A DNA stretch of 44,971 nucleotides. It comes from Hyphomonas pacifica (lineage in GTDB: Bacteria > Pseudomonadota > Alphaproteobacteria > Caulobacterales > Hyphomonadaceae). The notes below the pieces were generated by a model. The model had not been told where the DNA came from. It did not search any database and worked only from the letters and a program-made list of their open reading frames with translations. Below are positions 5,573 through 15,265 of this stretch, piece after piece. The translations under genes were made by a program, and so were the position numbers. Each line of letters opens with the position of its first letter. The first letter of the stretch is position 1. Location: assembly GCF_000682675.1 (NCBI RefSeq), contig NZ_AWFA01000018.1, positions 1 through 44,971 of the forward strand, read 5' to 3'.

Positions 5573-6165
5573 GAGGGCACTACCTTCCGAACACGCAGAT
5601 AATCAAGCAGGGGCAAAAGCGGTAGACCGAGAATGGAGAAATAATCGCCTTCGATGCGCGTAAACAATTGTGCCCCCAAGCCTTCCAGCTGGTACGCGCC
5701 CACTGTGGACAAGAGCGGCGCGCCGACCTTTTCGACATAGTCTTCGATAAAGTCTTCGCTCAGCACACGCATGGTAAGCTTCGGCCGCGCCAGATAGCGC
5801 CAGACCGGTTCACCATTTTCGGAAATGACAATCCCTGTTTCCAACGTGTGCGTCTTACCGGACAGTTTACGCAAATGGTCGCGCGCACCCTCCAGATCCA
5901 CGGGCTTGTCGAAGGCTTCATTCTCCAGCGACAGCATCTGATCACAGCCAATGATCAGACCGTTTTCTCGCATCGAAACTTTCATGGATTTCATCTCGGC
6001 CAGCTTCATGGCCTGATCACGCACGGACATGTTCTCGGCCCGGAATGCAGCCTTGGCAGCATCCTCATCCACGTTGGGCTTGATGGTTTCGGCTTCCACA
6101 CCCGCAGCGGTCAACACGGCGCGCCGACTCTGGCTGCCGGAAGCGAGAATAATGCGTGGGCTCAT
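5569..6165 (-). CDS. maf: Maf/YceF-family nucleotide pyrophosphatase
   Basis: Maf proteins hydrolyse non-canonical or modified nucleoside triphosphates; some members inhibit septation when overproduced. The 198-aa protein begins with the family signature ILASGSQSRRAVL and has GCDQMLSL (about 73-80) and STVGAYQLEGLG in the C-terminal half. Which sub-family substrate (dTTP/UTP or m7GTP) it prefers cannot be settled by eye. The ATG at 6165 overlaps the ppsR stop by 4 nt. Confidence 0.93.
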   Translation of the reverse strand: MSPRIILASGSQSRRAVLTAAGVEAETIKPNVDEDAAKAAFRAENMSVRDQAMKLAEMKSMKVSMRENGLIIGCDQMLSLENEAFDKPVDLEGARDHLRKLSGKTHTLETGIVISENGEPVWRYLARPKLTMRVLSEDFIEDYVEKVGAPLLSTVGAYQLEGLGAQLFTRIEGDYFSILGLPLLPLLDYLRVRKVVPS

Positions 6166-7007
6166 ACTTGTGCTTTCCGTTCGTTCAGCAGGTTCAGGAT
6201 CGCGGCAGCCGTTTCCTCAACCGAGCGGCGGGACACATCAATGGTCTTCCACTTGTTGCGTTGGAAAAGGCGGTTGGCCTGGGTCACCTCATCGCGCACG
6301 GCCGCTTCATCGGCATAGATGGTGTGTTCATCTTGATCCAGCGAGATCAGGCGCTGACGGCGGATCTGCACAAGGCGCTCTGCGCTGATCTTCAGGCCAA
6401 TGATCAGCGGGCCCTTCGGTCCGAGCTTTTCAATAAAAGGCGGCAGCGGCACGCCCGGAACCAGAGGAATATTCCCCGCCTTCACCTTGCGGTTTGCCAG
6501 ATACACACAGGTCGGCGTCTTGGATGTGCGGCTGACCCCCAGCAGGATAACGTCCGCGCCGACCAGCCCGTCAACATTCTGGCCATCATCATGCGCGAGT
6601 GTGAAATTGATTGCTTCCATCCGTTCGAAATAGTCATCATCCAGCGCGTGCTGGCCGGCAACTTTCTGGTTGGCCGAAATGCCGAGGTGGCGGCCCAGCA
6701 TGGCGATCGACGCATCCAGAACGGGCAGCGTCGCCACACCATGCTCACGACAGAAGGATTCCAGCTTCTGGCGCAGGACTTCATCAGAGATCGTGTACCA
6801 GACAACGCCGGGTGCGGCCTCTATCTCCCGCATCACGCGTTCCAGCTGGCGCTCGGAGCGGACGAGATAATAATTGTGTTCAAGCGGCTGTACGTTTTCG
6901 AACTGTGCACAGGCCGCTCGCTGAATCGCATTAAGGGTCTCACCCGTACTGTCAGACACGAGGTGGACATTGAAATAAATGCTGAAGCGCTGAGGGGTCG
7001 TATTCAT
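6162..7007 (-). CDS. ppsR: PPDK regulatory kinase/phosphorylase (DUF299)
   Basis: This 281-aa member of the DUF299 family is a bifunctional kinase and pyrophosphorylase that controls pyruvate phosphate dikinase or PEP synthase. The nucleotide-binding loop GVSRTSKT lies at about residues 157-164. I start it at 7007 because MNTTPQRFSIYFNVHLVSDS matches the usual N-terminus and an AGGGGGT ribosome binding site precedes it. A longer frame opens at 7070 but would run through the origin repeats. The gene is first in the leftward operon ppsR-maf-aroE-coaE-dnaQ and abuts the putative origin on the same side as the DUF299 gene in Caulobacter. Confidence 0.93.
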   Translation of the reverse strand: MNTTPQRFSIYFNVHLVSDSTGETLNAIQRAACAQFENVQPLEHNYYLVRSERQLERVMREIEAAPGVVWYTISDEVLRQKLESFCREHGVATLPVLDASIAMLGRHLGISANQKVAGQHALDDDYFERMEAINFTLAHDDGQNVDGLVGADVILLGVSRTSKTPTCVYLANRKVKAGNIPLVPGVPLPPFIEKLGPKGPLIIGLKISAERLVQIRRQRLISLDQDEHTIYADEAAVRDEVTQANRLFQRNKWKTIDVSRRSVEETAAAILNLLNERKAQV

Positions 7008-7121
7008 ACCCCCTGTGTTGCCGAGGTTGGCGAAACACACAAGACCTGTGAGTCGCCTGTGGATAGCCATTTTTCCCCAACTGGATTCACAATTGACTCA
7101 CAGGAGGCAGAATCCGACTCC

Positions 7122-7136
7122 TTAAGAATCCCTTTA
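7122..7136 (+). promoter_or_regulatory. Candidate CtrA site (TTAA-N7-TTTA)
   Basis: TTAAGAATCCCTTTA departs from the CtrA consensus TTAA-N7-TTAA by one base in the second half-site. The N7 spacer contains a GANTC site. It is centred 44 bp left of the perfect site. Confidence 0.5.
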
Positions 7137-7165
7137 TGTTCGACTCTGTGAGTCCCGCTAAGGTG

Positions 7166-7180
7166 TTAACCCCTCATTAA
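7166..7180 (+). promoter_or_regulatory. CtrA box (perfect TTAA-N7-TTAA)
   Basis: TTAACCCCTCATTAA is an exact CtrA binding consensus in the middle of the putative origin. In Caulobacter, phosphorylated CtrA bound to such boxes silences the origin in swarmer cells. Regulation here by the same route is inferred. Confidence 0.75.
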
Positions 7181-7198
7181 CCCTGTCGCGGCGGGTAG

Positions 7199-7213
7199 TT
7201 AATGAAACCTTAC
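7199..7213 (+). promoter_or_regulatory. Candidate CtrA site (TTAA-N7-TTAC)
   Basis: TTAATGAAACCTTAC has one mismatch to the CtrA consensus. It is centred 33 bp, about three helical turns, right of the perfect site, so dimers on the two could stack on one DNA face. Confidence 0.5.
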
Positions 7214-7349
7214 CCGGGTGCGACACCCTGTGACTCACCTGTGGAATTAGCTGGACAATTCCTGTGTGTGGCCTTTCTCCACGAATTACACGGTCTAATA
7301 GTTATAAGCGCCCTGTCGGGCTTTGTTTGAATTTGGAATGGATGGGGCG

Positions 7350-8387
7350 ATGGGCGAGAACACCAAGCCGAAACTGATTCAGGTACTCGAGGGACATGCG
7401 GTTTCTCCGCCTCCGGTATGGATGATGCGCCAGGCCGGGCGGCATCTGCCCGAATATCTTGAGCTTCGGGCGAGAGCTAAGAACTTCCTGGATTTCTGCT
7501 ACACGCCTTCAATGGCCGCTGAAGCGACCCTGCAGCCCGTCCGCCGATATGGCATGGACGGGGCTATCCTGTTCGCTGACATCCTGTTGATCCTGGACGC
7601 GATGGGCCTGGGTGTGCGGTTCGAGAAAGGTGTCGGGCCTCTGGTCGAAGAGATCGCCAGCGCATCGGACCTCTCTCGCGTACCACCACAACAGGCGGCA
7701 GACCGTTTGTCTCCCGTCTATGAAACTGTTTCTCGCGTGAAAGCCGGTTTGCCGTCAGGTACAGCGCTGATCGGATTTGCCGGCTCTCCCTGGACCGTTG
7801 GGCTTTATGCCATCGAGGGACGTGGCAAGACCGACAAGTCCACCGCCTGGCGCTGGGCCCATGGCAAGCCGGATGAACTGGCCGCTGTGCTGGACCAGAT
7901 CATTGATGCGACGGCCTATTATCTCAGCGCGCAAGTCGAGGCAGGCGCCGATGCGCTGATGCTGTTCGATAGCTGGGCCGAGGGCCTGCCGGACAATATT
8001 TTCCGCGAAGTCATTATTGCGCCGACAAAGAAACTTGTCGCGCGTCTTCGGGAGATGGGCATCACCGTGCCGATCATCGGCTTTCCGCGCGGCGCCTCAG
8101 CCATGATTGGCGAGTATGTGGCCGAAACCGGCGTGACAGCTGTGGGCCTCGATACGGCGGCTGTGCCAAGCTTTATCAATAGCGCGCTGCCGGAAGGCTT
8201 CCCGGTTCAGGGCCATCTGGACCCGCTATTGTTGATCGAAGGCGGTGAAAGACTCGACGCCCGCGTTCGTGAGCTTATCTCTGTCTATTCCGGCCGCCCG
8301 CATATTTTCAATCTTGGACATGGCATCCGGCCGGAAACCCCCATCGCGCATGTTCAGCGCGTTCTGGAAATCATTCGGGAAGGCTGA
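7350..8387 (+). CDS. hemE: Uroporphyrinogen decarboxylase
   Basis: HemE removes four carboxyl groups from uroporphyrinogen III to give coproporphyrinogen III in heme synthesis. The 345-aa product has the first family signature PVWMMRQAGRHLPEY near its N-terminus and the second, GFAGSPWTVGLYAIEG. I favour the ATG at 7350 because a GGGG ribosome binding site lies just upstream and the length then fits the family; an in-frame ATG at 7338 is possible. The gene begins at the edge of the origin, as in Caulobacter. It heads a hemE-hemH-hemJ cluster with a 5-bp gap to hemH. Confidence 0.96.
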   Translation: MGENTKPKLIQVLEGHAVSPPPVWMMRQAGRHLPEYLELRARAKNFLDFCYTPSMAAEATLQPVRRYGMDGAILFADILLILDAMGLGVRFEKGVGPLVEEIASASDLSRVPPQQAADRLSPVYETVSRVKAGLPSGTALIGFAGSPWTVGLYAIEGRGKTDKSTAWRWAHGKPDELAAVLDQIIDATAYYLSAQVEAGADALMLFDSWAEGLPDNIFREVIIAPTKKLVARLREMGITVPIIGFPRGASAMIGEYVAETGVTAVGLDTAAVPSFINSALPEGFPVQGHLDPLLLIEGGERLDARVRELISVYSGRPHIFNLGHGIRPETPIAHVQRVLEIIREG

Positions 8388-12770: not shown

Positions 12771-14636
12771 ATGAGCGAGACAAACCAGTTTGATGTGATT
12801 GTGGTGGGCGGCGGCCATGCCGGCTGCGAAGCAGCGGCAGCGGCGGCGCGGACGGGTGCACGCACAGCGCTCGTAACCCACAAGATCGCAACCATTGGCG
12901 AGATGAGCTGTAACCCGGCCATTGGCGGTTTGGGGAAGGGACATCTCGTGCGCGAGATTGATGCGCTGGATGGTTTGATGGGGCGCTTGGCAGACAAGGC
13001 AGGCATCCAGTTCCGGATGCTCAACCGCTCGAAAGGCCCGGCCGTCTGGGGACCGCGGTCTCAGATTGATCGCAAGCTTTATCGCGAAGCGATGCAGGCG
13101 GAACTCGCCGACTATCCGAACCTCACTATTATCGAGGATGGCGCGGAAGACCTGATTGTTGAGAACGATCATGTGGCCGGTGTGATCGGCCTCAAGGGCG
13201 ATGCATATCATGCGCCTTCTGTAGTAATTACCACAGGAACTTTCCTGAAAGGCCTGATCCATATCGGTGAGAAGCGCATCCCGGCGGGCCGTGTAGGGGA
13301 AGCCCCGGCGATTGGTCTTTCGGATCGACTCTATGGTCTGGGTCTGCCGATGGGGCGCCTCAAAACCGGAACCCCTGCCCGTCTCGATGGCCGCACGATT
13401 GCGTGGGATCGTCTGGAGATGCAGCCGGCCGATGAGCGCCCTATTCCGTTCTCCTATCTGACGGACGAAATCACTGTGCCGCAGGTCCAGTGCGGCATCA
13501 CATGGACGACCCCCGAAACCCACGCGATTATTGCAGAGAATATCACGCAATCGGCTGTTTATTCTGGCGCGATTGCCGGTCGTGGTCCACGCTATTGCCC
13601 GTCGATTGAAGACAAGGTGCATCGCTTTGCGGATAAGGATCGGCATCAGATATTCCTCGAGCCGGAAGGCCTGGAAGATCACACCGTGTATCCGAATGGT
13701 ATTTCGACGTCATTGCCGGAGGAGATTCAGGAACGCTTTTTGAAAACCATTCCCGGTCTCGAAAACGCGAAGATCCTGCAATACGCCTACGCGATTGAAT
13801 ATGACTACGTGGATCCGCGTGCGCTTTCCTCCGCCCTGGAAGTTCAGCTCCTGCCCGGCCTTTATTTGGCGGGACAGATCAATGGTACCACGGGATATGA
13901 AGAAGCTGGCGCCCAGGGCCTCGTCGCAGGTCTGAATGCCGCGCGCGCGACGGCTGGGAAAGATCCGATCATTTTTGACCGGGCCGAAGCCTATATCGGT
14001 GTTCTGATTGATGATCTCGTCACACGTGGCGTGACGGAGCCATACCGGATGTTCACGTCCCGCGCGGAATACCGTCTGGCACTACGGGCAGATAATGCGG
14101 ATCAGCGCCTGACCGCCAAGGGTATTGCCGCCGGATGTGTCGGGTCAGACCGTGCCTCTGTGTTTCACGTGAAACAGGAAAAACTGGAAGCGGCTCGGAC
14201 TCTTCTCAATACTCTCACGCTTTCTCCAGCCAAAGCCGCTTTGTCTGGATGGTCGGTCAATCAGGATGGCCGCGTCCGGACGGCGTGGGAATATCTCTCA
14301 TATAAAGACATAGGTCTCCCTTCACTAGCCAAAGTCTGGTCAGAGCTATCGGACATCGCGCCAGAGATCGCAACACAGATCGAGATCGAGGCGACCTATT
14401 CCGCCTATCTGGATCGCCAGGCGGAAGATGTCGCAGCACTGCGCCGGGATGAGGATCTGATGATCCCGGGTGATCTGGACTATTCCTCGATTGGCGGACT
14501 TTCCAATGAAGTACGCCAAAAGCTCGAAACCGTACGCCCCTCCACCCTTGGACAGGCCGGACGGATCGAAGGCGTCACTCCCGGAGCGCTGACCGCACTA
14601 CTCGGATATGTTAAGCGCCGTAAGAAGGCCGGTTAA
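12771..14636 (+). CDS. mnmG: tRNA uridine-5-carboxymethylaminomethyl modification enzyme MnmG
   Basis: MnmG (GidA) is the FAD- and folate-dependent partner of MnmE in tRNA wobble-uridine modification. The 621-aa sequence has the FAD-binding [10 protein letters not shown] at residues 13-22, the CNPAIGG motif and the GTFLKG and [10 protein letters not shown] family stretches. It is full length for the family. A perfect parS site is embedded at 14161-14176, where the codons read FHVKQ. The gap to mnmE is 71 bp and contains a 12-bp palindrome CGCTATATAGCG (12724-12735) that may belong to its promoter. Confidence 0.97.
14161..14176. other. parS: parS centromere site 1 (inside mnmG)
   Basis: TGTTTCACGTGAAACA is a perfect 16-bp parS palindrome. 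ParB loads here as a CTP-dependent clamp and ParA moves the complex to segregate the origin. It lies 1.9 kb before parB and 7 kb from the putative origin. Confidence 0.95.
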
Positions 14637-14641
14637 TACTC

Positions 14642-15265
14642 ATGACGAATTCTCAGGATCGCGCGGCTTTTTTGGCCGATTTCGATGTTTCACGTGAAAC
14701 ATTGGAAAGATTGGACACGATCATCTTAACCCTCGACGACTGGCGCAAGCGGTCAAACTTGATTGGCCCACGCGAATGGCCTCAGATCTGGACACGTCAT
14801 GTCGGCGATTCCTTCCAGATCCTTGACTCTGTATCTAATGAAACGCGTGTGGTGGATTTCGGTTCCGGCGCGGGCTTTCCAGGATTGATCATGTCGGCGG
14901 CCCGCCCAGCGTCTCACGTGACCATGATGGAGAGTGTCGGGAAGAAATGTGCGTTTCTACGCGCCGCGATAGATGCAGCCGGTCTCAATGCCGCCGTCTA
15001 TCAGGGACGGATCGAAACCGCCCCGGCGAGTGAGGCAGATATCGTCACCGCGCGGGCCTTTGCGCCACTTCCCAAATTGCTCGACTATGCGGCTCCATGG
15101 ATGGAAAACGGTGCAAAAGGGGTTTTTCTGAAGGGCGAACGCTGGAAAGAAGAATTGACGGACGCGCAACAAAGATGGAGTTTCGCCTATGAGGCGATTC
15201 CAAGTCGCACCGGTGGGTCAGGCGTGATTTTGATCGTGAGGGAGCTCAAACGTGGCAGGCGGTAA
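14642..15265 (+). CDS. rsmG: 16S rRNA (guanine-N7) methyltransferase RsmG
   Basis: RsmG (GidB) methylates N7 of G527 in 16S rRNA using S-adenosylmethionine. The 207-aa product has the SAM-binding VVDFGSGAGFPG motif near residues 75-86 and the family N-terminus, in which DVSRETLERL is encoded over the second parS site. It starts 5 bp after the mnmG stop. Its last 14 bp overlap the GTG start of parA, so the genes are probably one operon. Confidence 0.95.
   Translation: MTNSQDRAAFLADFDVSRETLERLDTIILTLDDWRKRSNLIGPREWPQIWTRHVGDSFQILDSVSNETRVVDFGSGAGFPGLIMSAARPASHVTMMESVGKKCAFLRAAIDAAGLNAAVYQGRIETAPASEADIVTARAFAPLPKLLDYAAPWMENGAKGVFLKGERWKEELTDAQQRWSFAYEAIPSRTGGSGVILIVRELKRGRR
14686..14701. other. 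parS: parS centromere site 2 (inside rsmG)
   Basis: This is a second perfect TGTTTCACGTGAAACA, 525 bp after the first. Flanking bases extend the palindrome to 18 bp (14685-14702). It encodes the conserved V-S-R-E-T of RsmG, so protein and centromere constraints coincide. Confidence 0.95.

Follow-up and report, generated by a model that had tools for sequence, protein, structure and literature searches.

The intergenic region at positions 7008–7349 of the 44,971-nt stretch of Hyphomonas pacifica DNA analysed here (the window) is located between ppsR and hemE, from which the genes on either side diverge, as in origins of the hemE type. The left flank, ppsR (6162–7008, minus strand), encodes a protein of the PEP synthase regulator family (NF003742, 313 bits). 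Its open reading frame extends to 7070, but the start is probably at 7008, since the family profile aligns only from residue 32 of the long reading frame onwards. The right flank, hemE (7338–8387, plus strand, starting at 7338 or 7350), was assigned by TIGR01464 (356 bits, over the cut-off), and the HemE of the H. pacifica genome is 76–81% identical to that of named Hyphomonas, a genus of stalked bacteria that multiply by budding. Leftwards from the gap run ppsR, a Maf-like gene, aroE, coaE and dnaQ, while hemE, hemH, rho, mnmE, mnmG, rsmG, parA and parB run rightwards. An earlier note on this DNA had described the gap between these two genes, with genes pointing away from it on both sides, as a putative replication origin; position and orientation are as it stated.

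Within the window, the cumulative GC skew has its minimum at approximately 7 kb, where the skew switches from negative to positive. A complete relative (G213), sampled every 190 kb, has positive skew in all ten stretches of the right arm and negative skew in 8/10 of the left arm (p = 3e-4), and its switch lies after the stretch at −143 kb and before that at +47 kb, values that refer to this relative and not to the strain of the window. The skew switch at the locus, a feature of hemE-type origins and a check proposed in the earlier note, is thus seen in both the window and the relative. Two perfect parS consensus sites (14161–14176 and 14686–14701) are located ahead of parA and parB, approximately 7 kb from the gap, the distance claimed before. 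According to nearest-neighbour energy, the least stable stretch of the gap and candidate unwinding element is found at 7267–7308; of 44931 40-mers across the window, only 176 have a lower stability than that at 7269. A scan for IHF sites gave only one match, with two mismatches. An RNA element was rejected as an explanation of the gap, as no Rfam match was obtained in 6500–8000.

One single-contig genome of the genus (G195) has a record ending 93 nt upstream of its HemE match, inside the ppsR–hemE gap. This genome is presumably that of H. neptunium; if so, the published maximum at about 0 degrees corresponds to the ppsR–hemE gap. Marker-frequency sequencing placed the H. neptunium origin close to hemE; the same source states that neither GC skew nor the dnaA gene nor DnaA sites had been conclusive (PMC6650430). 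CtrA ChIP-seq in H. neptunium is described as locating CtrA beside the origin, with the consensus TTAA-N7-TTAAC (PMC7200025). Because of the skew switch, the conserved box arrays described below, parS, the synteny and the marker frequency published for the same genus, the ppsR–hemE gap is likely, and with good support, the chromosome replication origin of this Hyphomonas, and the main proposal of the earlier note is upheld. An ordinary divergent promoter region would also have two divergent genes, yet neither the skew switch and parS nor the marker-frequency maximum close to hemE (PMC6650430) and CtrA beside that origin (PMC7200025) would be accounted for, which makes this reading of the gap extremely improbable.

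The gap contains nine GANTC sites in 342 nt. When the gap was shuffled 5000 times with dinucleotides preserved, six sites at most were obtained. Away from the gap, the highest count in any 342-nt stretch of the window is five, equal to the maximum among 7880 windows from 400 kb sampled from the complete relative. The GANTC cluster is therefore as extreme as claimed in the earlier note. Four of the sites (7110, 7116, 7126 and 7142; together 7110–7146) lie outside the boxes described below and five inside DnaA-like repeats. With a ccrM gene present in the genome, adenine methylation of the GANTC sites is predicted. A perfect CtrA box, TTAA-N7-TTAA, as in hemE-type origins, is located at 7166–7180 (plus strand) and occurs only this once in the 45-kb window. 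Just one near match (TTAA-N7-TTAC, 7199–7213, plus strand) was found in the window, where two had been reported before. Both CtrA boxes are positioned between a left group of DnaA-like boxes and a right pair. Among 41 gaps of the genus, 31 have at least one perfect CtrA box, and 40 a perfect or near-perfect one. Control by CtrA is supported by the ChIP-seq result beside the H. neptunium origin. The suggestion that a CtrA-bound origin outside the Caulobacteraceae would be new does not hold, since marker frequency and CtrA ChIP-seq of H. neptunium, reported in 2019–2020, had already established CtrA beside the origin in Hyphomonas.

The DnaA-box-like repeats noticed earlier are present, but they are not features separate from the GANTC cluster: repeats and cluster are largely the same elements. 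Five of the seven predicted DnaA boxes of the gap read TGTGANTC, a DnaA-type TGTG core merging into a CcrM site (GANTC), with words at 7047, 7084, 7095, 7147 and 7229. On the plus strand, the fused box L1 (TGTGAGTCG, 7047–7055) is followed at 11 bp by the canonical-like DnaA box L2 (TGTGGATAG, 7058–7066), and the fused box R1 (TGTGACTCA, 7229–7237) likewise by the canonical-like R2 (TGTGGAATT, 7240–7248). The left pair, TGTGAGTCG-CC-TGTGGATAG, and the right pair, TGTGACTCA-CC-TGTGGAATT, hence have the same strand, spacing and order of fused and canonical-like box. Two fused boxes, r1 (TGTGAATCC, 7083–7091) and r2 (TGTGAGTCA, 7094–7102), form a minus-strand pair, also 11 bp apart, and a single fused box, M (TGTGAGTCC, 7147–7155, plus strand), completes the set. 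The gap accordingly holds a cluster of predicted DnaA boxes, with the conserved canonical-like L2 and R2 and fused boxes in phase with them. E. coli-type DnaA boxes were rejected as a description of the cluster, as only one 9-mer of the gap, at 7058, is within one mismatch of TTATCCACA. The fused boxes have the TGTG half of the TTATCCACA type, while the G at the fifth position and the following A-T are absent in TGTGANTC, for which reason they are termed DnaA-like rather than canonical. Judged from these deviations at and after position 5, binding of DnaA to TGTGANTC could be very weak.

Shuffles of the gap gave at most two fused boxes in 5000, compared to five observed. Genome-wide (3.42 Mb), TGTGANTC is not favoured, since it occurs 89 times, compared to 102 for a reversed-pattern control. 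Five of these 89 words lie within 190 nt at the gap, and nowhere else are more than two found within 1 kb.

For conservation of the boxes, the gaps of 41 of the 42 genus genomes were aligned with all 17 gaps found for the sister genus, g2, and those of G190 and UBA5336; one genus genome (G221) was left out as its contig starts 123 nt before hemE. Box counts refer to this one alignment, and counts of changes to one hemE tree of the 34 genus genomes with a whole hemE. Genus g2 contains Henriciella: two of its loci, L110 and L111, have the same gap sequence as the Henriciella-named loci L009 and L008, respectively. Three to five fused boxes were found in 40/41 Hyphomonas gaps (five in 14, four in 19 and three in 7), and one in the remaining gap. 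In total, 168 of 322 GANTC sites are fused in the 41 Hyphomonas gaps compared to none of 86 in the 17 g2 gaps. L1 is fused in 34/41 genus gaps and begins with TGTGT, neither fused nor canonical, in 6/41, while 17/17 g2 gaps have TGTGGA. L2 has TGTGG in 33/41 genus and 16/17 g2 gaps, and R2 has TGTGGA in all 41 genus gaps. The fused form was found for r1 in 40/41, for M in 39/41 and for R1 in 39/41 genus gaps, R1 reading TGTGACTTG in two genomes. Box r2 is fused in 16, has TGTGG in 22 and another sequence in 3 of the 41 gaps, with at least three swaps between canonical and fused form on the hemE tree within the genus. In g2, r1 and M are without a clear box counterpart, and the place of R1 is weakly DnaA-like, of the type T[AG][TG]GGA in 13/17 gaps and xTTGGACTC in 4/17. 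The latter sequence (L104, L110, L111 and L172) introduces a GANTC site into this box, one base later. In G190, which lies just outside the genus, L1 is canonical and R1 and r1 are fused, an arrangement intermediate between the canonical and the fused one. In a fragmented metagenome-assembled genome (G216, 74% complete), the left half of the gap is absent and replaced by unrelated coding-like sequence (L117); this contig is probably chimeric. In four loci (L085, L086, L112 and L113, the hemE of G115, G031, G220 and G207, respectively), the HemE match extends across a single TGA.

The pattern of substitution inside the fused boxes bears on what is selected there. At r1, TGTGA and the terminal TC are fixed in 40/41 gaps, while the base between them takes all four identities (A in 15, C in 9, G in 8 and T in 9). 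This N changed at least 5, 5 and 3 times on the tree at r1, M and R1 (three columns), compared to four changes over the nine columns of A5, T7 and C8 at the same boxes. A base N that changes often, with A5, T7 and C8 changing rarely, would be expected if GANTC itself is selected. The contrast is weaker at L1, with six changes of N and 1, 3 and 3 of A5, T7 and C8, respectively. A reading of the fused boxes as no more than weak TGTGA-type DnaA boxes, in which the CcrM site is incidental, could build on the TGTGA cores that serve as DnaA sites elsewhere (PMC5043019), on the single TGTGAATC found before hemE in several Devosia-named and further loci and on an N that is not fully free at R1 (C in 37, G in 4 of 41) and M (never A in the 41 gaps). 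Since a constraint by DnaA only should hardly leave the middle base of r1 free while fixing the outer T and C, and in view of the 168 fused sites among 322, this explanation is decidedly unlikely. The r1 pattern would rather fit a GANTC constraint added to a TGTG constraint.

A different role of the GANTC sites would be in transcription, with the diverging promoters of ppsR and hemE controlled by methylation-dependent GcrA/sigma-70 activity or in another way, in which case the overlap with TGTG would be irrelevant to DnaA. GANTC is described as a promoter mark in Alphaproteobacteria, with GcrA acting at methylated promoters (PMC8116508); the genome encodes GcrA, two divergent starts lie in the gap and four GANTC sites lie outside the boxes. 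A strong sigma-70 promoter was rejected, as the scan, confined to the sigma-70 type, gave one weak match in 6900–7400, compared to a mean of 0.5 in shuffles. A role in transcription leaves unexplained why TGTG is fixed beside GANTC at r1 in 40/41 gaps, why fused boxes keep an 11-bp phase to canonical ones and why they exchange with TGTGG at L1 and r2, and it is considered rather unlikely.

CcrM, GcrA, CtrA and DnaA are encoded in the genome of H. pacifica. CcrM was identified with 615 bits (NF050803), under the strict cut-off of 830, with its RAMA domain over the Pfam cut-off. GcrA is over the Pfam and under the NCBIfam cut-off, CtrA is over its cut-off, and DnaA reached 333 bits (cut-off 344). 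Despite scores below the curated NCBIfam cut-offs, the matches of CcrM, GcrA and DnaA are near full length. SeqA gave no match in the genome (G000), while the same search was positive in the E. coli control. All seven DnaA proteins retrieved from eight Hyphomonas genomes searched have the recognition helix RDHTT, which aligns to E. coli DnaA domain IV (1j1v). An altered recognition helix was therefore rejected as the cause of the TGTGA boxes. Four DnaA proteins retrieved from g2 (L143, L146, L147 and L149) have KKDHTT in place of RDHTT.

The Hyphomonas gap shares with Caulobacter Cori and the H. neptunium origin its location beside hemE, a TTAA-N7-TTAA CtrA box and weak DnaA boxes, and in H. 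neptunium parAB is likewise reported approximately 7 kb away. As an origin, the H. pacifica gap is ordinary; it is unusual in its boxes. Cori is described with G-boxes (TGATCCACA) and weak W-boxes, while the weak class in Hyphomonas is TGTGANTC with a CcrM site inside. A TGTGA core, with T at the fifth position on the other strand (TTCAC), is reported as the core of epsilonproteobacterial DnaA boxes; the same source describes footprints of E. coli DnaA on H. pylori boxes and a TGTGA core in the E. coli R5 box (PMC5043019). Epsilon- and deltaproteobacterial DnaAs are described as having mostly K and S at the positions corresponding to E. coli 432 and 435, residues absent from the seven Hyphomonas proteins, which have R and T (RDHTT), and, unlike the epsilonproteobacterial type, Hyphomonas still has TGTGGA boxes.

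A further likeness is to E. coli oriC, where weak DnaA sites are described as overlapping the methylase target GATC and being blocked by SeqA. The E. coli oriC sequence retrieved here contains TGTGATC and TGTGAATGATC, TGTGA cores overlapping GATC (Dam sites). Hyphomonas differs from this in the methylase, CcrM with its target GANTC, and in the genome of H. pacifica lacking a SeqA match, which sets it apart from Dam/SeqA sequestration. The intergenic stretch of E. coli has a single TGTGATC, compared to five fused boxes in the H. pacifica gap. In the origin of V. cholerae chromosome 2, methylation acts inside the repeats of the initiator, which is of the plasmid type and works with Dam, in place of DnaA and CcrM. 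The likeness to this origin with Dam and RctB consists in adenine methylation and replication control at the origin (PMC2865523). In the open-licence literature searched, as far as its texts could be covered, no description of DnaA boxes with GANTC inside was found; the overlap of DnaA-like repeats with the GANTC cluster is the new aspect of this locus, the CtrA-bound origin in the genus being known.

On the best reading, the fused boxes would be weak DnaA boxes under the control of CcrM methylation, comparable to the Dam sites in E. coli oriC but working without SeqA. It is marginally probable that the gap is an origin in which the five TGTGANTC boxes, each with its CcrM site, would bind DnaA in a methylation-dependent manner. 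The wider proposal of a CcrM-licensed Hyphomonas origin, with methylation inside DnaA boxes as in Dam-controlled oriC, without SeqA and with ancestral boxes converted one by one, is slightly less likely than not. The canonical boxes L2 and R2 would anchor DnaA, and the fused boxes would be weak neighbours one helical turn away, to be filled by a DnaA filament opening AT-rich DNA next to the R pair, perhaps at 7267–7308. After passage of the fork, the fused boxes on both copies would remain in a hemimethylated state that disfavours filling by DnaA, up to the late action of CcrM in the cycle, so that the origin is used once. In swarmer or bud cells, the origin would be blocked by CtrA~P bound between the left boxes and the R pair. 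The methyl group would sit on base five of the box, beside the TGTG half, and could plausibly alter the affinity of DnaA; least certain in this scheme is whether methylation favours or disfavours binding. Control by CcrM, as suggested in the earlier note, is thereby given a concrete anatomy and is plausible, judged from sequence alone. Alternatively, TGTGANTC might be recognised by a separate protein that reads hemimethylated GANTC and keeps the origin sequestered in place of SeqA, in which case DnaA would be displaced without the methyl group itself acting on it. The SeqA-negative genome with its positive E. coli control, the clustered, repeated and partly paired TGTGANTC sites and the described blocking of weak GATC-overlapping DnaA sites by SeqA in E. 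coli would be consistent with this. A plain methyl reader would not need the replacement of canonical by fused boxes seen at L1 and r2, and such a reader is unlikely.

Methylation-gated DnaA boxes would address a point unsettled in Caulobacter, namely whether CcrM affects replication initiation directly. Additional copies of the chromosome are reported on over-expression of CcrM (earlier work, cited in PMC3973325), and a model of the Caulobacter cell cycle requires a fully methylated origin, while cells without CcrM are described as having a DNA-content profile like wild type in minimal medium (PMC3973325). CcrM of Caulobacter acts late in the cycle (PMC8116508). Since the profile remained wild-type-like without CcrM, CcrM need not act at origins, and gating by CcrM would be a trait of Hyphomonas rather than a general one. 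With a methylation site inside conserved DnaA-type boxes, a direct link between methylation and initiation becomes testable; the fused boxes would let DNA methylation act directly on the timing of replication start. The TGTGANTC boxes may also partly explain why searches for DnaA sites at the H. neptunium origin were unclear.

Fused boxes were considered as a general alphaproteobacterial feature and rejected as such: among 75 named non-Hyphomonas loci (L007–L081, up to 450 nt upstream of hemE and fewer where the contig ends), 14 have exactly one TGTGANTC and none has more. Of 20 gaps examined in further families of the same order, one contains a single TGTGANTC. The signature to be sought elsewhere is TGTGANTC at 11 bp from TGTGGA, and one Sphingobium already shows such a pair: upstream of hemE in Sphingobium scionense (L080), CTGTGAGTCCCCTGTGGATAAAG combines a fused and a canonical box at 11 bp. 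This pair, far from Hyphomonas, is possibly convergent. A single TGTGAATC is found upstream of hemE in 7 of 16 Devosia-named loci (L022, L026, L038, L044, L065, L066 and L071) as well as in L020, L030, L043, L045 and L074. In these sites N is always A, and most of them are reverse-strand sites at around nucleotide 310 of the 450 nt upstream. Three Hyphomonadaceae-like loci (L012, L013 and L014) have 13–15 GANTC sites in the 500 nt upstream of hemE, denser than in the H. pacifica gap, of which, over the three loci together, one (in L013) is fused to TGTG.
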